A DNA stretch of 38,111 bases from Acidobacteriota bacterium (GTDB taxonomy: Bacteria > Acidobacteriota > Terriglobia > Terriglobales > SCQP01), in the NCBI GenBank assembly GCA_027451805.1, contig DAIDIF010000167.1, positions 1 to 38,111 on the forward strand, read 5' to 3'. Both the position numbers and the translations under genes were made by a program. The notes under the pieces are model-generated. The model did no database searches. It was given only the letters and a program-made list of their open reading frames with translations, and had not been told where the DNA came from. Below are positions 885-10,428 of the stretch, one piece after another; within the stretch, counting starts at the first letter, position 1, and every line of letters starts with the position of its first letter.

Positions 885-3800
885 TCACGTCCCGATACAC
901 ATGTACATGAACTCGTTGCCGTTTGCCATGGTTCCTCGGTTGCTTATGACGTAGAACCCGGCCGTGGAAAGGGACACGACTTCATAGGGCGCACCGACAA
1001 GCGGATTGCTGGAGGTGCCGCCGTCAGTCACCGTGCAGACAGGGGTGGACGCAAAGTTCGAGGAAAAAATGATGTGCACCTCGGAGCAAGTGCCGGAAAT
1101 CGTCACGCGCCCTGCCGTATCGGTACCAGAAATGGCGTCGTTGCCCGTCGAGCAATACTGATTGCCAAGGGACGGCGTAACGCCGTTTGTACTCACATGT
1201 CCATCAACCGTGAGCGCCTCGTCGGGGCTTGCCGTGTCGATACCGACATCCTTTGTGGTACCGTCAAAATAGGCAATGGCGCTCTGCTCGCCATTTCCAA
1301 CAAACAGGCTTCGCGGCTGGGTGAATCCCTGGTTGTAGCCACGGTAGTTGATGTAGAGCGTGGCGGCGGCGTTCGTGGCCGGCTGGGTCCACGTCTCGTT
1401 CGTATAGCCGGCCCAGAGCGCATTACCGCCGATGTCGGTGGTACCATCCGCCGTCATATTGCCGTCCACCGTCAGTGTGCTGGGGAATTCGTACGCCCCT
1501 CCGCCTGTGCTATTTCCGAACGTACCCGCCGATATATTCGCGGCATTCACGGTGCCGTTGAACGTACCAGTGAGGGTGCCGGTCACCGTTTCATTCCCAT
1601 TTACATAGACCGGCCCATCAAAATATCCCGCGTAGGTCTCGGTGCTTCCATCCGCATTTATGCCACCTTGGGCGTATATGCCGGCACCGCCCTGGGCGGT
1701 GCTGCCCGAATAGGTATAGGCGTTGCCGCCGATCGCGACGATGCCTGCGCCGCCTCCTGCCAATGGATACCCCTCGCCGCCATGGAAATATCCGCCCGCC
1801 ATGCCGCCCATGTAGACAGAGCTCGTGGCATTCTGATTCCCGTAGGTGTACGGTGAGCCGTCCCCGTACTGATCGCCAAAGACCCCTGTGTGCTGCGCGC
1901 CGCCGCCATAATAGTTCGTGGTGTTGCCCGACAATGTCGCCCTGTCGTATGCGCCTTCGGAGTCTAGGGTCGTGCCGGGGGCGGTGGTGCCGATGCCGAC
2001 GTCGCCGTTCGCGGCAAACGTGGTTGAATAATTCGCAACGTTGTAATCTTGCGTCTGGATTGACACGCTGACGTTGCCATTGGTCGCATTGTTCATCACC
2101 AACCCAGCACCGCCGCCAGGTGTTGCACCGTTTGCATCAGCTTCGCCAACAAACGTAGTCCAGGTTTGCCCCAGCGAACTGCCATAAGGGATGCGTCCCA
2201 GTGCGAAAGTGCCTCCTTCGTTGTTGGACGAGTTCGAAATGACGTCAAGCTTTGCGTCCGGCGATGCCGTCCCAATGCCGACGCTATTCGGCACATAGAC
2301 ATTGCCATTCGCCAGGAACTGCATTGAAAGCGTGCCGTTCGAATCCGCGTTATAGCCGTTTGTGTTGTTGACGTAGATGCTACCCAAACCGCCGGCCGCA
2401 CTGTTGCCGAAGCGAATCTCGTTCTCGCCGTTGTTGCCGAGAATGAGCGAGCCAATCGCATTCGACTGCGCACCGAGCTCCGTGCGATAGTTGCCGCCAT
2501 ATCCGCTCGGGCTCAGCCAGATGTCTGGAGCACTTGCGGAAACCTCAAGTGAGGCGCCGGGGCCGGCTGTTCCGATCCCGATGTCGCCTTGGGTGTAGAG
2601 ATTCCCCGTGCGCGTGTCGATCACCAAGCTGTAGTTGTTGCCAGTGATCCCGCAGCAGTTCGAATTGAACCCGATGCCGTTCCAGCTCTGGATTGTGTCG
2701 TCGACTGTCGAGAAGCTCGCGCCGTCGTTACCCGTCGAATTGAGCACAAGCCCAAGGTTCGATGCCGCACCAATTCTTGCCCCGCCGTTCACATCGAGCA
2801 CTGCTCCTGGATTCGAAGTGCCGATGCCGACGAGGTTTCCATTCGTCACAAACAAACCGGTCTGCCCGCCGCCGACCTGGTAGCCATTGTTCGAGAGCCG
2901 AATCATCGGCGACCCAAGCAAGGAAAGGTCCGCACGGTACCCGTCGTTGTCGTTGATGAAGCCGCCGTCGCCGCCGTACCAGCCGATGTTGTCGTACGGG
3001 CTTGCGAAGGTGAGGGTCCAGCCGAGCGGGTTCGTGCCGCCAAGCTCGACGCTGGCGGGAAATTCATAACTGCCGTTCCCCACATTCGATCCAAAAGTAC
3101 CCGCCGAGACGTTGCCAGCGTTGATCGTGCCGGTGAAGGTGTTGGCGGACAGCGCGCCATTGACGTTGACCGTGTTCGCGTCGAGGTAGATTTCGGAAAG
3201 GTTCGTGCCCGTGCTTCCGCTCGACGCCAATCCGCGTATATCGAGCGATCCCGAATTGCTGCCGTTCACGTCGCTCACGTCAATATAGGCAGTGCTCGCC
3301 GTCCCGGAGGCAGAGACGAACGACAGCTCGCCGGCGTTCCCGCTCTCTGCGATGGTGAGCGGGCGGATGGGGTTCGTCGTCCCGATACCGACGTCGCCGC
3401 CGTCGAACCACGTCGCCTGGTTGCTCCCGATATTCACGGTCTGCGTGCCGCCGTTGAAGAGTTCGAGCAGGCCGGCATCATTGCCGCTCGAATAGCCGAG
3501 GAGGGCGGAAATGTTGTTATTCGTGGTGGAAAACCACCCGGTAGTGCCGCCGAAATCTTGAGAGTGGCCGCTTTGCGTGGTGCCGGCCTGCAGGACGCCC
3601 GGGGTATAGATCACGCCGTTGCCCATGATGTGAAGCACCGCATTGCTGTTCTGCGTCTCTTGAAGCGTCAGGTCCGCGGTGCCGCTGTCGTTTTGGGAAC
3701 CGATCTGGGCAACCCCCGGGAATCCCGGATTCTCCCAGACGACGCCCTCCGGGGAACTTGGCATGTTGATGCACAATGCGCCGCCGCCGCAGATCGTGCT

Positions 3801-5075
3801 GGTGGCTTCGATCTCGACGGAACTCGGGAATATATACATGCCGCCTCCCACATTAGAGCCAAAGGTACCCGCGGAGACGTTCGCCGCATTAAGGGTGCCA
3901 GTGAGTGCCTGACCGCCGAAGGTGCCGCCAACCGTGAGGTTGCCGGTGATGTTGGCGCTGCCGTTGACTTGGAGCGTCGAGGTGGGCGTGACGGTACCGA
4001 TGCCCACGTTGCCGTTCGAAGCGACCGTGAACAACTCTTTGTCGGTCGAGCCGTTGTACCAGCTCGTTGCCAGGAATTCACTCCCCGGATTGCCCTCTGT
4101 CGTGAAAACGAACTCGTCCGTGCCATTCCATGTGGTACGGCGGAGTCCCAACGCGTTGTCATTTGAAGAATACAAGTCAAGCAATCGGCTGGGCGCGGTC
4201 GTCCCGATACCGACATTGCCGCCGTTCGGCGCGAGCCAGGTGTCGCCGTTCGAACTCACCGCGAACCGGTCCTTGCCCGCCGCCATGTCATAGAGGGAGA
4301 CCCTGCCGAACTGGTTTAGATAGAAGGCGTAGTCGTTCGTTCCCGCTCCCGTGCTCGTCAAACTGAGTTGGGTATTCCCGGCCGATCCGATAGTGAGTTG
4401 GGAACCGCCCACGGGCGTTGTGTTGATGCCGATATCACCCGACGCGTTCCACGAGAGCACGTTGTTTTGGCTACCGTTCAATACGTTGGACCACCCGAGC
4501 GACCAAGTGTTGCTGCCGCTGTTCTGGAGGTAGCCGTACTCGGAATAGCTGTTCAGCCAATAGCCGCCGCTGTTCGCCGCGGCGCTATCGTAGAGATAGG
4601 TTGGGAATGTGACGGCGGCGGGAAATGCATACGCGCCGCCGCCGAAATTGTTGCCGAACGTGCCTGCAGTTACATTCGCAGCGTTGATGCTGCCCGTGAA
4701 TCCGTTGGCCGATGAAACCAGACCGTTCACATTCAGCAGTCCGCCCGAAAGATCGCTCGTGCCCATGCCGATGCTCCCGTCGTTCCTGATGATGAAGAGC
4801 GGATTCTGCGTCGAGTCGAGCACCTTGAAGACGAAGCTCGACGTGTCGTTCGTGGAAGAAGCCTGGACGAGCAGCTTCGTGCCGGTGCTCGCCGTCGAGG
4901 TGCCGATGCTGATGTCCTGATTGGAGCCAACGCCGATCGCCCCGCTGCCGCTTCCGGCCGACTGGCCGGCTGCGGGACCGTTGAAGGCGAGTGCGGTCGT
5001 GGAGTATGCGAACGTCGCCGCCAGGAGCAGGGGAATGGCCGCACTTGTGAAAAGCGGGAAGCGGCGCGTGCGCAT
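885..5075 (-). CDS. Giant exported repeat protein with 'VGIGT' and 'NAANVSAGTFG' repeats (tail-fibre/adhesin-like)
   Basis: This 1396-residue protein starts with a signal peptide (residues 1-30, RRFP then a hydrophobic stretch, likely cut after TTALA). The rest is Gly/Ser/Asn/Thr-rich and built from two repeat families. The first, of the form G(N/D)VGIGT.xP...L.V.G, occurs about eleven times (coding DNA near 4900, 4760, 4425, 4205, 3995, 3385, 2820, 2575, 2275, 1990 and 1235). The second, of the form TG(T/S)(I/L)NAANVSAGTFG..GGG.Y.FP, occurs four times (near 4655, 3865, 3095 and 1525). Such beta-rich repeats are known from tail fibres and endosialidase-chaperone (S74) proteins, but I see no S74 domain. 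The C-terminal 90 residues contain four Cys (CSTGND, GTCSEV, PVCTVT, YMCIGT) and look like a closing beta domain. No LPXTG motif, outer-membrane barrel or autotransporter domain is evident. Composition is lower in GC than the chromosome. Probable surface or secreted fibre; its function is unknown. Confidence 0.8.
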   Translation of the reverse strand: MRTRRFPLFTSAAIPLLLAATFAYSTTALAFNGPAAGQSAGSGSGAIGVGSNQDISIGTSTASTGTKLLVQASSTNDTSSFVFKVLDSTQNPLFIIRNDGSIGMGTSDLSGGLLNVNGLVSSANGFTGSINAANVTAGTFGNNFGGGAYAFPAAVTFPTYLYDSAAANSGGYWLNSYSEYGYLQNSGSNTWSLGWSNVLNGSQNNVLSWNASGDIGINTTPVGGSQLTIGSAGNTQLSLTSTGAGTNDYAFYLNQFGRVSLYDMAAGKDRFAVSSNGDTWLAPNGGNVGIGTTAPSRLLDLYSSNDNALGLRRTTWNGTDEFVFTTEGNPGSEFLATSWYNGSTDKELFTVASNGNVGIGTVTPTSTLQVNGSANITGNLTVGGTFGGQALTGTLNAANVSAGTFGSNVGGGMYIFPSSVEIEATSTICGGGALCINMPSSPEGVVWENPGFPGVAQIGSQNDSGTADLTLQETQNSNAVLHIMGNGVIYTPGVLQAGTTQSGHSQDFGGTTGWFSTTNNNISALLGYSSGNDAGLLELFNGGTQTVNIGSNQATWFDGGDVGIGTTNPIRPLTIAESGNAGELSFVSASGTASTAYIDVSDVNGSNSGSLDIRGLASSGSTGTNLSEIYLDANTVNVNGALSANTFTGTINAGNVSAGTFGSNVGNGSYEFPASVELGGTNPLGWTLTFASPYDNIGWYGGDGGFINDNDGYRADLSLLGSPMIRLSNNGYQVGGGQTGLFVTNGNLVGIGTSNPGAVLDVNGGARIGAASNLGLVLNSTGNDGASFSTVDDTIQSWNGIGFNSNCCGITGNNYSLVIDTRTGNLYTQGDIGIGTAGPGASLEVSASAPDIWLSPSGYGGNYRTELGAQSNAIGSLILGNNGENEIRFGNSAAGGLGSIYVNNTNGYNADSNGTLSMQFLANGNVYVPNSVGIGTASPDAKLDVISNSSNNEGGTFALGRIPYGSSLGQTWTTFVGEADANGATPGGGAGLVMNNATNGNVSVSIQTQDYNVANYSTTFAANGDVGIGTTAPGTTLDSEGAYDRATLSGNTTNYYGGGAQHTGVFGDQYGDGSPYTYGNQNATSSVYMGGMAGGYFHGGEGYPLAGGGAGIVAIGGNAYTYSGSTAQGGAGIYAQGGINADGSTETYAGYFDGPVYVNGNETVTGTLTGTFNGTVNAANISAGTFGNSTGGGAYEFPSTLTVDGNMTADGTTDIGGNALWAGYTNETWTQPATNAAATLYINYRGYNQGFTQPRSLFVGNGEQSAIAYFDGTTKDVGIDTASPDEALTVDGHVSTNGVTPSLGNQYCSTGNDAISGTDTAGRVTISGTCSEVHIIFSSNFASTPVCTVTDGGTSSNPLVGAPYEVVSLSTAGFYVISNRGTMANGNEFMYMCIGT

Positions 5076-5367: not shown

Positions 5368-5739
5368 ATGCGACGCAGCAGAAGACTTGAGAACTACATC
5401 GCCTCCCACCGCAAGCGGTCCGGCCTCTCGCAGAAGGAGGTCGCCTGGCTGCTCGGCCACCGGAGCGGGTCGGAGGTCGCGCTGTTCGAACTGAACCGGC
5501 GCCAGCCGAAGCTCGACACCGCGCTGAAGCTCGAGATTCTCTTCGGCATCCCCGCAGCGGAGCTCTTTGCCGGAAAGCGGCAGCGGTACGAGCGCGAGAT
5601 CGAGGAGCGCCTCAGAAAATTCCACTCGCAGGTGGTCGCAACACCCGTGGTTGCCAAAGGTCGCCGCAAGCGCGAACGCGAGATGAAGCTCGAGTGGCTC
5701 GCGAACCGCCTTGACCGCCCGCCGATCGAACTCGCCTGA
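5368..5739 (+). CDS. XRE-family helix-turn-helix regulator
   Basis: A 123-residue protein. Residues about 8-62 form a Cro/C1-type HTH: ENYIASHRKRSGLSQKEVAWLLG, then SEVALFELNRRQPKLDTALKLEILF, the usual arrangement of recognition helix and following helix. The tail (70-123) is strongly basic and helical. The start lacks a clear Shine-Dalgarno sequence, being preceded by a T-run, but it gives a normal-length HTH N-terminus. Its stop overlaps the start of the next gene (TGATG), so the two are co-translated. It likely represses its own operon through the palindrome just upstream, and may respond to the state of the element. The HTH call is firm; the target is inference. Confidence 0.85.
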   Translation: MRRSRRLENYIASHRKRSGLSQKEVAWLLGHRSGSEVALFELNRRQPKLDTALKLEILFGIPAAELFAGKRQRYEREIEERLRKFHSQVVATPVVAKGRRKREREMKLEWLANRLDRPPIELA

Positions 5740-6257
5740 TGCACTCGTCCCATCGCCGGATACTGGCGTTCGACGTGCGCTCCCGCCGGGCAGGCTTCGT
5801 CCTGCTCGAAAGCCCCCACCATCTCATCGACTGGGGCTGCCTGTACTGCTCAAATCGGGACGTCTCGCCGGCGCGTCAGTTGGCCAAGCTCCTCGCCCGG
5901 ACCCGGCCGGACCGGGTCGTCGTCGTGACTCCGGCGAACCAGGCGCTCGCCCGGCGGCGGCTCCGCCGCATGGTGGACATGGTGACGAAGGAAGCGGAGA
6001 CATCGCGCGTCCGGGTGATCGTATTTTCCCGCCGGAGCGTGCTGCGTGCGCTCGACGTGAAACGCCGCCATGCGGCCGCGGTACTCGTCACGGAACGGTT
6101 CCCCGTGCTCAAGCCGCGCCTGCCCCGTCCCCGGAGAATCCAGGACAGCGAGCATCCGTCCATGTGCCTCTTCGACGCGGCCGCCGCCGGCCTCGCGTAT
6201 TTCGAGAAGTACGCGCGGCGGCGGACCGCGGCGGCCACTCCGCCACGCGCTGCCTGA
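5739..6257 (+). CDS. RuvC-like RNase H-fold protein coupled to the XRE regulator
   Basis: A 172-residue protein that opens with RRILAFDVRSRRAGFVLLE. This is the first beta strand and acidic residue (D12) of RuvC/RNase H-fold resolvases, which typically read 'ILGIDPGxxxTGxAVLE'. A middle strand (DRVVVVTP, about 58-65) sits where the second acidic residue would be, but no Glu is there. Near the end comes D146 in CLFDAAAAGLAYFEKY, like the 'DAxALAL' helix of RuvC. The protein overlaps the XRE gene by TGATG. It could be a diverged Holliday-junction nuclease or an RNase H-fold binder without cutting activity. The fold call is fairly sure; activity is doubtful because one acidic position appears missing. 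Confidence 0.6.
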   Translation: MHSSHRRILAFDVRSRRAGFVLLESPHHLIDWGCLYCSNRDVSPARQLAKLLARTRPDRVVVVTPANQALARRRLRRMVDMVTKEAETSRVRVIVFSRRSVLRALDVKRRHAAAVLVTERFPVLKPRLPRPRRIQDSEHPSMCLFDAAAAGLAYFEKYARRRTAAATPPRAA

Positions 6258-6268
6258 GCCCAGGCGCG

Positions 6269-6312
6269 CTTCCGGCAGCCGGGGTGTCCCCCCGCACTCC
6301 CGCTGCCGGAAG
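6269..6312. repeat. Inverted repeat between the RuvC-like and HipA-like genes
   Basis: CTTCCGGCAGC (6269-6279) and its exact complement GCTGCCGGAAG (6302-6312) flank a C-rich 22-base loop. There is no T-run, so it is not a typical terminator. It sits 45 bases before the GTG start of the HipA-like gene and may shape the leader RNA or serve as a binding site. Confidence 0.5.
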
Positions 6313-6356
6313 GGCACCGCCCTTCCCACGTCCTTTGACAACCGAGGAGGAATCTC

Positions 6357-7196
6357 GTGATCAGGCCGGTCGAACACGTCCGCCCCATGCGGGGTGGCGC
6401 GCAATCGCATCTCATCCGTGGCGACGATGGACATTACTACGTCGTCAAATTTCTCAACAACCCCCAGCACTCCCGCATCCTCGCCAACGAATGGCTTGGG
6501 ACGAACCTTGCCCGATTCGTCGGCCTTTCGGCGCCCCACGCTGTCGTGATGGACGTCGATCAGGCCTTCATCGCGACGCACAAGCTGTCGCTTCGGATCG
6601 CCGGGAAATCCGTCGCGTGCAGCCCGGGACCGGCGTTTGCATCCCGGTTGCCGGTCCAGCACGTCGAGTCTCCGATCTACGATCATCTGCCCGAGGCCAG
6701 GCTGGCGCTCGTCGAAAATCTCGACGAGTTTGCCGGCATCCTGGCCGTGGACAAGTGGCTCTGCAACTGCGACGGCCGGCAGGTGGTGTTCTGCCGCCCC
6801 CAGCGCTTCAGCAGACTCCGGGCGTACTTCGTGGATTTCGGGTTCTGTTTCAACGCGGGGGAGTGGTCGTTCCCCGACAGCCCCCTTCGCGGCGCCCATT
6901 CCCACAACGCCGTCTACCGGACCGTCACCGGCTGGGACAGCTTCGAGCCGTGGCTTTCGCGGATCGAAACGCTCAGGTACCGGGAGATCAAGGCCATTGC
7001 CTACGACATGCCACCGCCCTGGCGGACGGACACCGACGCGCTCAACCGCCTGGTCGCCGATCTCCTGCTCCGCCGCGGAACCGTCAGACGCCTCATTGAA
7101 TCAGTTCGATTCAGCAACCGCGCACCGTTCACGAATTGGACGGATGCAAACGCGGCGGCTGCCACCACCTTACCGCCCGAACAGAAGCACGCCTGA
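6357..7196 (+). CDS. HipA-like protein kinase (HipA_2 type)
   Basis: A 279-residue protein with a GTG start preceded by a strong GAGGAGG seven bases upstream. The sequence follows the HipA-like kinase plan. An N-terminal glycine-rich turn (MRGGAQSHLI) leads to the ATP-binding lysine K31 in YYVVKF. E45 in ILANEW follows. The catalytic loop is VDKWLCNCDGRQ (D132, N137, D139) and the metal-binding DFG is at D160. All key kinase residues appear present, so it should be an active Ser/Thr kinase of the type that phosphorylates translation factors or aminoacyl-tRNA synthetases. There is no HipB beside it; the nearest HTH is the XRE gene two genes upstream. A DUF932 gene follows after 13 bases. Target and role (persistence, element control or defence) are unknown. 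Confidence 0.75.
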   Translation: MIRPVEHVRPMRGGAQSHLIRGDDGHYYVVKFLNNPQHSRILANEWLGTNLARFVGLSAPHAVVMDVDQAFIATHKLSLRIAGKSVACSPGPAFASRLPVQHVESPIYDHLPEARLALVENLDEFAGILAVDKWLCNCDGRQVVFCRPQRFSRLRAYFVDFGFCFNAGEWSFPDSPLRGAHSHNAVYRTVTGWDSFEPWLSRIETLRYREIKAIAYDMPPPWRTDTDALNRLVADLLLRRGTVRRLIESVRFSNRAPFTNWTDANAAAATTLPPEQKHA

Positions 7197-7209
7197 AAGG
7201 AGAATCCCT

Positions 7210-7962
7210 ATGAACGTCGTCGCAATGCCCCTCGGGAACGGTACGCACGCCGCTCCCACGGTTGGAACCCTCATCGCCCGGCGCCGCATCTCGCGCGCCG
7301 AACTGGCCCTCGTACCCACGCCCCCGGGCACGTCCACTCATCGTCCCGTGCCGCACGTCGAAGTCGTCGAGGCCCTGGTCGAGACGCTCGGCTTCCGGCA
7401 CATCGGGATCCATCGCGAGGAGTACGCCGTCTCTCCGGACGGCATGAAGCTCTTCGGCCTCATGGAACTCGAGACCACGTTCCAGGGGTGCCGCTTCGCC
7501 GTGGGAATCCGCAATTCGCACGACAAGAGCATGCGGCTCGCCCTCACCGTCGGCTACCGCGTGCTCGTCTGCGAGAACATGGCCTTCCATGGCGACTTCC
7601 AGCCGTTGCTCGCGAAACACAGCAAGCACTTCTCGCTCAAGTCCGCAATGTCGGTGGGCGCGGACGAGATGCAGCGGAACTTCGCGCCGATGGTCGAGGC
7701 CGTCTCACGCTGGCGGGAAAGCCAGCTCACCGACGTGAAAGCCCGACTCACCATCTACCGGGCATTCATCGAAGGGGAGCTGGAGGCCCCGCGCCATCTT
7801 GACCGGCACGTCCATGAGCTCTACTTCAACCCGCCGCACGAGGAGTTCCGCCCGCGCACGATGTGGTCGCTCTCGAATGCGTTCACGGCCGCGTTCAAGG
7901 AGCTTGATCCGATCCCCCAGTTCAAGGCCACCGCGCGGCTCGGGGCATTCCTCAATCCCTGA
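7210..7962 (+). CDS. DUF932 (phage/plasmid-like) protein
   Basis: A 250-residue protein starting at an ATG with AAAGGAGA seven bases upstream; that ribosome site overlaps the end of the HipA-like gene. The core matches the DUF932 family found in phages, plasmids and genomic islands. Seen are: GIHREEYAVSPDGMKLFGLMELE, then FAVGIRNSHDKSMRLALTVGY with conserved Arg, Asn and Asp, then VLVCENMAFHGDF, and a helical tail with YFNPPHEEF and TMWSLSNAFT. The biochemical function of DUF932 is not established. Co-transcription with a kinase and the terminator right after it define a two-gene unit. Confidence 0.8.
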   Translation: MNVVAMPLGNGTHAAPTVGTLIARRRISRAELALVPTPPGTSTHRPVPHVEVVEALVETLGFRHIGIHREEYAVSPDGMKLFGLMELETTFQGCRFAVGIRNSHDKSMRLALTVGYRVLVCENMAFHGDFQPLLAKHSKHFSLKSAMSVGADEMQRNFAPMVEAVSRWRESQLTDVKARLTIYRAFIEGELEAPRHLDRHVHELYFNPPHEEFRPRTMWSLSNAFTAAFKELDPIPQFKATARLGAFLNP

Positions 7963-7981: not shown

Positions 7982-8015
7982 CGAAGCCAACGAAACCCGT
8001 TGGCTTCGCTATTTT
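7982..8015 (+). terminator. Rho-independent terminator after the DUF932 gene
   Basis: CGAAGCCAACG (7982-7992) pairs perfectly with CGTTGGCTTCG (7998-8008) around a five-base loop and is followed by CTATTTT. It ends the HipA-like/DUF932 unit. It also makes the ATG at 8016, inside the tail, an unlikely translation start for the next gene. Confidence 0.8.
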
Positions 8016-8081
8016 ATGGACAATTTCTCCGGGGTGGCTCTCGAAGAGCGAGTATTCTCTGGACAAGGGGATCAGCTGGCA

Positions 8082-9197
8082 ATGTGGACCAAAGCAATGA
8101 TCGAAGCGCAGCTTATCGGACGCATCGAAGACACATTAGCCCTTGAACCGGAGCGCGTCGTCGAGGCATATCGTCGAACAGAGCGCGTTCTCGGGGTTCG
8201 TTGGATTCAAAAAACAGTGGGGCATGATCGCGGCATCCATCCGGTGATATCTGTGCTGGCCATAGGTCTTTCATTGCGTGCTGTCGAGGACCTTCAAAAT
8301 TGCGAGCTTCTGATTAAAAAACTGAAACGACAGCGAGATGACGATGCGATATCCGTCTTGCAGGCAGTTTACATTTTGCGTTTTCCTGATTTCCAGCCCT
8401 GTGAATTTGAATGGGAGCCGCCCGTAGGCACGAAAAAGGCGGACTTCCGGATTCGCCGGCCCGGCGAGGATTGGACAACGGTCGAAGTGTGTCGTCCGGA
8501 CAGTTCTCAGGCTTTGAAGGCTCTCGACAAAATGGCGGCGAATATCGGGGAGTCTCTGGCTGATGTCATCGGGCCCGGCACAGTGCATCTGTTCTTTCAG
8601 CGGGAGCCCGATGCCTCAGCAATTCAGGCCGTGATCGAATGGGCCCAATTGCGTCGTTCTCAAAGCTCGGGAGATGAAATACTGCCCGGTGACATCGGGG
8701 TTGCAAGCTTCCCAAAAACGCCTGCGGCCAATCTTACTTCGAGTCGACCAATAGGTTTCGACGCCGTGCCGATGGTGGGCGTAATTACGCTCAAGCCAGG
8801 AGCGAGCGGCGTTCCTGATCGCCAAGTGGGCATTTGGATTCCCTTTTCTGATCGAAGAGTGGATCGATTCATTAACGATAAGGCAAAGCAACTGCGCCCA
8901 TCTGAGGCCGGTTTATTGATGCTTCACACTGGTGGAATTGCCGGCGGCATTCCTTCGTGGTCGTTGACTATCAAGCGAAGGCTTCAATATTCGCCAACGG
9001 GGCCCGTGAGCGCTGTCTGTCTTTTTGGTCCGATGTCAGCTTCGGTCTTTGGGCGCTATCGGCCCGCGTTTGAGACTTCGCTCGTGATGAACGACGCCGC
9101 AAAATTCCCGTTGCCCGGTTCTCTTTGCCAATCAGTCGTTGCGGTTCGCGAGGATTTTGCGAAAACACTACATGTCGAACCCCCGGTGCCATCTTGA
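8082..9197 (+). CDS. Uncharacterised protein with a possible PD-(D/E)XK-like nuclease core
   Basis: 371 residues from the ATG at 8082, which has AAGGGG 11 bases upstream. An earlier in-frame ATG at 8016 would add 22 residues, but it falls in the tail of the preceding terminator. The N-terminal third is helical (IEAQLIGRIEDTLALEPERVVEAYRR). A central block reads FEWEPPVGTKKADFRIRRPG then WTTVEVCRP, with D121 and E135 spaced like the acidic pair of PD-(D/E)XK nucleases. The expected Lys after the Glu is Cys here, so it may be inactive or the resemblance may be chance. The C-terminal half is unfamiliar. Base composition is less GC-rich than neighbours, consistent with recent acquisition. It sits next to the integrase, where accessory or defence cargo often lies. 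Confidence 0.5.
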   Translation: MWTKAMIEAQLIGRIEDTLALEPERVVEAYRRTERVLGVRWIQKTVGHDRGIHPVISVLAIGLSLRAVEDLQNCELLIKKLKRQRDDDAISVLQAVYILRFPDFQPCEFEWEPPVGTKKADFRIRRPGEDWTTVEVCRPDSSQALKALDKMAANIGESLADVIGPGTVHLFFQREPDASAIQAVIEWAQLRRSQSSGDEILPGDIGVASFPKTPAANLTSSRPIGFDAVPMVGVITLKPGASGVPDRQVGIWIPFSDRRVDRFINDKAKQLRPSEAGLLMLHTGGIAGGIPSWSLTIKRRLQYSPTGPVSAVCLFGPMSASVFGRYRPAFETSLVMNDAAKFPLPGSLCQSVVAVREDFAKTLHVEPPVPS

Positions 9198-9230: not shown

Positions 9231-10265
9231 TTACGCCCACGTCTGCCGAACCGCTGCCTCAAGGTTCCGCTGTAATGAGGGCACCCACGGTGCGTAGGAC
9301 TTCTGCGTCGTCCTGACGTTCGTGTGTCCAAGGAGGATCGAGACGGTCTCCAGCGGGACGTTCTTTTCCAGGAGGCGGACGGCGAAGCTGTCCCGCCACC
9401 GGTGCGGGTGTGCGTGCGCCACGTTTGCCTTCTTCGCAGCCTTGAGGAGCTTCACGCGGTAATATTCGGCGATGCTCGCGGGCCTTTCGCTTGCCACCCT
9501 GAAGTACATGCCGGCAAACGGCGCCAGCTTCTTCAAATCCCGCAACAGGTCTGGCGGCAGGGGAACGCGCACCGGAACGCCGGTCTTCTGCTGATAAAGG
9601 AACAGTGCCCCGTTTTCGATGCGATCAGGGCCGAGCCTCGCCGCGTCGATGATGCGGAGGCCCGAGTGCAGGAGCACCCGAAAGAAGACACCGGATCGAA
9701 AGTCGGCGGCCTTGATGATCGCCGCGGTTTCTTTTTCGGTGAAGGGAAGCGTCGGGCTCGGCTTGACCACCGGGGGCTTGAGGTGTGCGACGGGGCTGCG
9801 GTCGATCCATCCGTTTGCAAGGAAGAAGGAGAATACGGTCTTCATCCGCTCCAATTCCTTCGCCGAGCTGATCGCCGCGAGCTTCCAGCGGGAGCGGAAC
9901 TCGACTGCGTGCGCGTGGGTGAAGTCGTTGAGTGGCCGCTTGCCCCAATAGGCCTCGATGCGGGAGCGGAGCCGCTCGTACTTGACCATTGAAGCGGGGG
10001 AGAGATTGCGCGCCTGGCAATCCGCGATAAATCGACCGAAGGCGTCGGGAAGCGTGATGTTCTCCCGCATTTCACGTGGCGCCGCCCCCTCCTCAAGTTC
10101 GCGTTTCATGGATTCGGCCCGTTCCCACGAGGAGGTTTTTAGGGCGTGGCGTCGCTTACGACCGCCGATGGTTCCCTGACACCACATCTGGCACCGGCAT
10201 TTGCGGTAGTACCGGTTCGCGTGGTGCGGACAGCTCGCTGCGTGGCGGCGGTAGAGGGTGAGCAC
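9231..10265 (-). CDS. Tyrosine recombinase (integrase) of the element
   Basis: 344 residues from the GTG at 10263-10265. The open frame continues upstream but there it reads through the tRNA-Leu gene, so that extension is not real. The N-terminus has a Cys/His cluster (LYRRHAASCPHH, then RKCRCQMWC), a zinc-finger-like module seen in many acidobacterial integrases. A core-binding helical domain follows at about 70-165. The catalytic domain has all expected residues: R204 (SGLRI), K227 (QQKTGV), H288 and R291 (HRWRD), H314 (LLGHTN) and Y324 (KSYAPW). It is intact and should be active. The gene faces away from the tRNA 3' end, with 75 bases between its start and the tRNA, the usual arrangement for tRNA-targeting integrases. 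Confidence 0.92.
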   Translation of the reverse strand: MLTLYRRHAASCPHHANRYYRKCRCQMWCQGTIGGRKRRHALKTSSWERAESMKRELEEGAAPREMRENITLPDAFGRFIADCQARNLSPASMVKYERLRSRIEAYWGKRPLNDFTHAHAVEFRSRWKLAAISSAKELERMKTVFSFFLANGWIDRSPVAHLKPPVVKPSPTLPFTEKETAAIIKAADFRSGVFFRVLLHSGLRIIDAARLGPDRIENGALFLYQQKTGVPVRVPLPPDLLRDLKKLAPFAGMYFRVASERPASIAEYYRVKLLKAAKKANVAHAHPHRWRDSFAVRLLEKNVPLETVSILLGHTNVRTTQKSYAPWVPSLQRNLEAAVRQTWA

Positions 10266-10340
10266 GGCTGTACGATGGTACAAAAAGCGGTACAGCCAGC
10301 GCAACTCGCTGTTAAACGATTGAAAATAAGCAGGATAATA

Positions 10341-10428
10341 TGGTGCTGGAGGGGGGAATCGAACCCCCAAGGGGACAAGCCCCGGCAGATTTTGAGTCTG
10401 CTGCGTCTGCCAGTTCCGCCACTCCAGC
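10341..10428 (-). tRNA. tRNA-Leu (anticodon CAA), attachment site of the element
   Basis: An 88-base tRNA with encoded CCA. The acceptor stem GCTGGAG pairs fully with CTCCAGC. The anticodon stem GCAGA/TCTGC closes a CTCAAAA loop with CAA at 10392-10394. The long variable arm (GGGG, CTTGT, CCCC) is class II, as expected for Leu. The T arm is GGGGG, TTCGATT, CCCCC. It lies on the minus strand with its 3' end facing the integrase. Its 3' part is therefore most likely the attachment-site core kept intact by integration. Confidence 0.97.

Follow-up and report, generated by a model that had tools for sequence, protein, structure and literature searches.

A HipA_2-family kinase gene and a DUF932 gene lie side by side in a 38,111-nucleotide stretch of an Acidobacteriota genome (the window), in what appears to be the end of a mobile element with an integrase beside a tRNA-Leu. 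On balance, we favor the reading that the kinase is mobile-element cargo that travels without a DUF3037 gene of its own, and that DUF932 is a gene of the same element rather than a dedicated antidote. Comparison with related genomes suggests that the two are independent passengers on mobile DNA. The first-pass annotation had seen in them a candidate stress, dormancy or defence system; such a role is plausible for the kinase, whose family forms a published anti-phage pair with DUF3037, but a dedicated kinase-DUF932 system is unlikely.

The kinase gene (6357-7196, + strand, GTG start) encodes 279 amino acids that score 39.4 bits against PF20613 (HipA_2; cut-off 27), and the following gene (7210-7962, + strand, ATG start) encodes 250 amino acids that score 30.1 bits against PF06067 (DUF932; cut-off 23), which places both proteins in these families. 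Neither ORF is disrupted; each has a good ribosome-binding site and conserved motifs. Foldseek matched the kinase model (pLDDT 91.9) to PI4KIIalpha (E=4e-6), Fam20C and CtkA and, more weakly, to HipA (3tpd; E=1.8e-3); TM-scores were moderate, and the model points to a kinase fold of the HipA/PI4K type. The DUF932 model (pLDDT 86) matched only models of phage DUF932, TIGR03299 and DUF945 proteins, and neither sequence nor structure searches returned a significant PDB match; as far as the model allows one to judge, this fold is possibly unsolved.

K31, D132, N137, D139 and D160 (the DFG Asp) are all found in the kinase at these positions, as had been annotated. The accompanying claim that this amounts to a complete catalytic set stands for the residues themselves but is less certain for catalysis throughout the family, since position 139 is Asp in 24 and Asn in 32 of the 56 aligned relatives. 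In the same alignment K31, D132, D160 and G162 never vary, and N137 hardly does; the Asn that HipA carries five residues past its catalytic Asp is not conserved, and an invariant Gln is present at position 142. From an alignment of motifs, we take D139 to be the equivalent of the HipA catalytic Asp, D309. D139 is kept in all 16 kinases without a detectable nearby DUF3037, and the 40 DUF3037-associated kinases, which include three with weak or divergently placed DUF3037 matches, carry N139 in 32 cases and D139 in 8, a pattern that tracks phylogeny in part. With its motif residues intact, the window kinase is predicted to have Ser/Thr kinase activity.

Exactly 13 bases, with an AGGAG among them, separate the kinase stop codon (7194-7196) from the DUF932 ATG (7210), and DUF932 is followed by a perfect 11-bp stem with a T-rich tail (7982-8008, + strand), a probable intrinsic terminator; both features are as first annotated. 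The sequence 3' of this hairpin is CTATTTTATG. As terminator-like matches in the region are no more numerous than in shuffled sequences (2 versus 2.4), the only argument for a terminator is the quality of the stem. The description of the two genes as a sealed unit holds at the downstream end but not upstream, where an XRE-type HTH regulator gene (5368-5739, + strand; HTH_3, 25.1 bits) and a RuvC-like gene (5739-6257, + strand) share the kinase's orientation and are separated from it by a 99-base gap. This gap holds a 24-nt inverted repeat (6263-6318, 83% complementary), a candidate operator or RNA hairpin. The RuvC-like protein was recognized by alignment with its relatives, one of which (L083) weakly matches PF02075 (E=0.009); the acidic residue that both relatives keep (LED) is missing, and the protein is therefore probably inactive.

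HipB usually adjoins HipA, and its absence had been noted for this locus. This is correct for the adjacent genes, but the XRE HTH lies two genes upstream, and its fold and strand could suit a displaced HipB in a classical HipBA-like operon. We give this very little credence: the protein scores 14.2 bits against the HipB-type model TIGR03070 (cut-off 71.65), its position two genes off does not fit, and the HTH/RuvC-like pair recurs near DUF932 at loci that carry no kinase (L082, L083, L103), which argues that these genes are not HipB. The model score and the kinase-free recurrence led us to reject the HTH as a neighboring HipB. The window does share with HipBA the HipA kinase fold, the motif order and a nearby HTH gene; in HipBA, however, HipB is adjacent, whereas the window kinase is of the short HipA_2 type and belongs with another partner family.

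Downstream of the probable terminator lie a 393-aa ORF (8016-9197, + strand; G+C 0.54), for which family searches gave no matches, and a tyrosine integrase gene (9231-10310, - strand; PF00589, E=1e-15), whose start is approximate because a longer version of the ORF runs through the neighboring tRNA. The latter, a tRNA-Leu (CAA) gene (10341-10428, - strand), is the probable integration site. G+C is 0.54-0.70 in genes to the left of the tRNA region and 0.71 (host-like) to its right, and this shift puts the kinase/DUF932 pair at the boundary of an integrated element that extends leftward beyond the contig. A second attachment site (a repeat of the tRNA-Leu 3' end) was not found in the window, in which the element, of phage or conjugative type, is clipped by the contig end. 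The integrase belongs to one family with integrases from DUF932-bearing viral contigs. At the left, the contig start clips a gene for an AAA+ protein, leaving its C-terminal part (2-739, + strand; blastp family F28); Pfam and PHROG searches with this fragment returned zero matches, a P-loop motif is seen in its relatives, and the gene is common to the DUF932/HTH/RuvC elements L153 and L154. It is followed by a gene for a long, secreted, tail-fibre-like protein of 1396 aa (885-5075, - strand; PF03903 Phage_T4_gp36, E=3e-14), probably cargo of the same mobile region. A clear prophage reading of the window was not upheld, since a gene in its left part also occurs in elements with HTH, RuvC-like and DUF932 genes; one of these (L082/L153) carries a T4SS coupling-protein-like gene. 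Kinases encoded by phages or prophages include 933W Stk, for which superinfection immunity is reported, and the HipA-family kinases of 'Gratiaviridae', for which it is proposed (PMC8008677). These sit on a phage or prophage, whereas the window element is known as an integrase-tRNA edge and not as an intact phage.

HipA-like kinases and DUF3037 form an anti-phage, toxin-antitoxin-like pair (PDC-M66, DS-6 or HipAD; PMC12548924, PMC13092281), in which deletion of the kinase abolishes defence, deletion of DUF3037 is toxic (PMC12548924) and DS-6A depends on a predicted catalytic residue (PMC13092281). The window kinase matches the PADLOC model PDC-M66A with 24.4 bits, and relatives of 46-57% identity occur in the DUF3037 arrangement; among them is the kinase of a pair located elsewhere in the source genome (L001), which is 56% identical to the window kinase. 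Across the phylum sample and the viral contigs, kinase relatives are almost always followed by DUF3037, which adjoins 22 of 23 viral-contig copies and nearly all chromosomal ones. In contrast, the window kinase adjoins DUF932, and a profile search of all window ORFs identified no DUF3037 beside it. It also keeps D139, whereas HipAD-type acidobacterial kinases paired with DUF3037 mostly carry N139. A separate, solitary clade of HipA_2 kinases (L035, L124-L127) is encoded 3' of a gene for an acidic, Lys/Ala-rich low-complexity protein and has no DUF3037.

The kinase-DUF932 adjacency is unique in our samples. Among 247 genomes of the phylum, HipA_2 is present in 47, DUF932 in 15 and both in 3, and the window is the sole case of the two on one contig. 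Sequence searches with the window kinase (E<=1e-4 or 1e-5) revealed no adjacent kinase of its type at any of 58 DUF932 loci in GTDB genomes or 80 in IMG/VR viral contigs. The recurrent neighborhood for which the first-pass annotation asked has no second case here. DUF932 is mostly kinase-free, and kinase relatives are also found without it. DUF932 is strongly conserved and widespread in phages and mobile DNA, where it is far commoner than kinases of the window type; the nearest relatives of the window copy are in IMG/VR viral contigs, and its identity to viral copies is 76-77%. The kinase itself had zero matches in phage records and two, both distant, in plasmid records.

A looser association was encountered in a PRTRC-type element, where in five loci of a targeted set a co-directional kinase, frameshifted in two of them, precedes DUF932 by approximately 5 kb. 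The conserved order is PRTRC_B, PRTRC ThiF, (SSB), Rad52-like, kinase, DUF6094 methyltransferase, 223-aa protein, helicase and DUF932. With partial loci included, eight intact and two frameshifted kinases occupy the position at the Rad52-like gene, all in the absence of DUF3037. Other elements hold different genes at this position, which hence looks like a cargo slot, and DUF932 persists in copies with a broken kinase or none. The two frameshifted copies out of ten indicate that the kinase is dispensable; dN/dS values for the element kinases, about 0.07-0.2, indicate purifying selection. DUF932 together with a HipA_2 kinase lacking DUF3037 is thus common to the window and this Acidobacteriota element (about ten loci), but in the window no genes intervene and both genes belong to other clades. 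The draft source genome gave no helicase or PRTRC ThiF match, and none of the genes that mark the element (PRTRC_B, ThiF, helicase, methyltransferase) lies between kinase and DUF932.

In the kinase tree, the PRTRC-element kinases are united in a single clade (100/99) to which the window kinase does not belong; the latter sits on a long branch and has a weak affinity to L001 and L115 (90/71). In the DUF932 tree, the window copy does not fall in the PRTRC-element clade but shares a clade (96/92) with L060 and nine rows from viral contigs. Since neither gene groups with the element copies, the window adjacency arose separately, and its origin by simple deletion from a PRTRC-type element was rejected. 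Kinases without DUF3037 are found mostly on mobile DNA, namely the PRTRC-type element, an integrase island (L158), a phage-like contig (L266) and the window. In the viral contig L266, the kinase gene is flanked by a peptidase-like gene and the integrase, a slot that DUF932 fills in the sister contigs L175 and L182, and no DUF932 match was obtained in the 34.7-kb L266 record. Taken with the tree positions, this suggests that kinase and DUF932 are interchangeable or co-resident cargo and not an obligate pair.

These data bear directly on the proposal that DUF932 has replaced DUF3037 as a direct neutralizer of the kinase in a new two-gene toxin-antidote system. The 13-base spacing, ribosome-binding site and shared terminator would suit it, as would the absence of DUF3037 beside the window kinase and the PRTRC-type element, where kinases lacking DUF3037 have come to be associated with DUF932 on another, independent occasion. 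We nevertheless consider it improbable, given that none of the other DUF932 loci or genomes surveyed has an adjacent pair, that the PRTRC-type element has genes in between and retains DUF932 without a working kinase, that the L266 kinase has no DUF932, and that DUF932 is strongly conserved in mobile DNA well beyond the range of the kinase. The proposal that DUF932 is an antidote dedicated to this kinase therefore fails most of the refuting test that the first-pass annotation itself had set: the adjacency is unique, the two genes have different relatives in their trees, and they occur apart. The first and second of these led us to reject a dedicated pair. A broader version, in which DUF932 neutralizes or gates HipA_2 kinases that have lost DUF3037 and the combination arose on two independent occasions, in the PRTRC-type and window elements, seems to us similarly doubtful. 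We hold it to be very improbable that the kinase senses or phosphorylates DUF932 as a phage or plasmid protein; its wide occurrence in phages and the defensive role of the DUF3037-paired kinase family (PMC12548924, PMC13092281) would be compatible with a trigger or substrate, but constant co-expression of a trigger with its kinase would be self-defeating, and the adjacency does not recur. That both genes are passengers without function, decaying at the margin of a truncated element, is unlikely, yet deserves more serious thought: the RuvC-like neighbor has lost its conserved acidic residue, kinases are broken in part of the PRTRC-type copies and the branch of the window kinase is long, whereas the reading frames, ribosome-binding sites and motifs of both genes are intact and DUF932 remains close to its viral counterparts.

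The preferred reading, a kinase carried as cargo beside an unrelated element gene, draws on the HipAD experiments, in which the kinase was needed for defence and DUF3037 loss was toxic (PMC12548924), and on the fact that DUF3037-less kinases are mostly mobile and in all 16 cases keep D139, with purifying selection on the element kinases; the solitary clade L035, L124-L127, which is not obviously mobile, the partly phylogenetic basis of the D139 pattern and the frameshifted element copies speak against it. The window kinase would thus be of the type that usually provides the toxin in the anti-phage pair with DUF3037 and, once released or triggered, would most likely phosphorylate a cellular target, with superinfection exclusion, abortive infection or element maintenance as the possible outcome. 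DUF932, as a phage/plasmid-type gene, would probably be co-transcribed with it. Restraint of the kinase, if needed, would most likely come from low expression driven by the upstream regulator region or from host DUF3037 encoded elsewhere. The toxin member of a defence pair described only recently would then travel partnerless, with its motif Asp intact, on Acidobacteriota mobile elements, which raises the question of whether such orphan kinases are restrained by host DUF3037 in trans or by an element protein. Should DUF932 prove to restrain the kinase, a common uncharacterized phage/plasmid family would gain a function.

DUF932 genes are themselves found interrupted or duplicated in part. At L100 (1385-5736) and L101 (477-6423), DUF932 is split near codon 119-125 by three tandem tyrosine recombinases (RIT-like). 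Several genomes (G253, G258 and others) carry many copies of the 3' half of DUF932, starting at approximately residue 126-131, lined up on one strand at intervals of about 5-15 kb (L145-L150, L141, L068). The junctions of these extra copies often share sequence, such as CATTGTCTCAGGCGTGTTTACGCC, and the serial arrangement with a shared junction suggests repeated site-specific insertion into DUF932.
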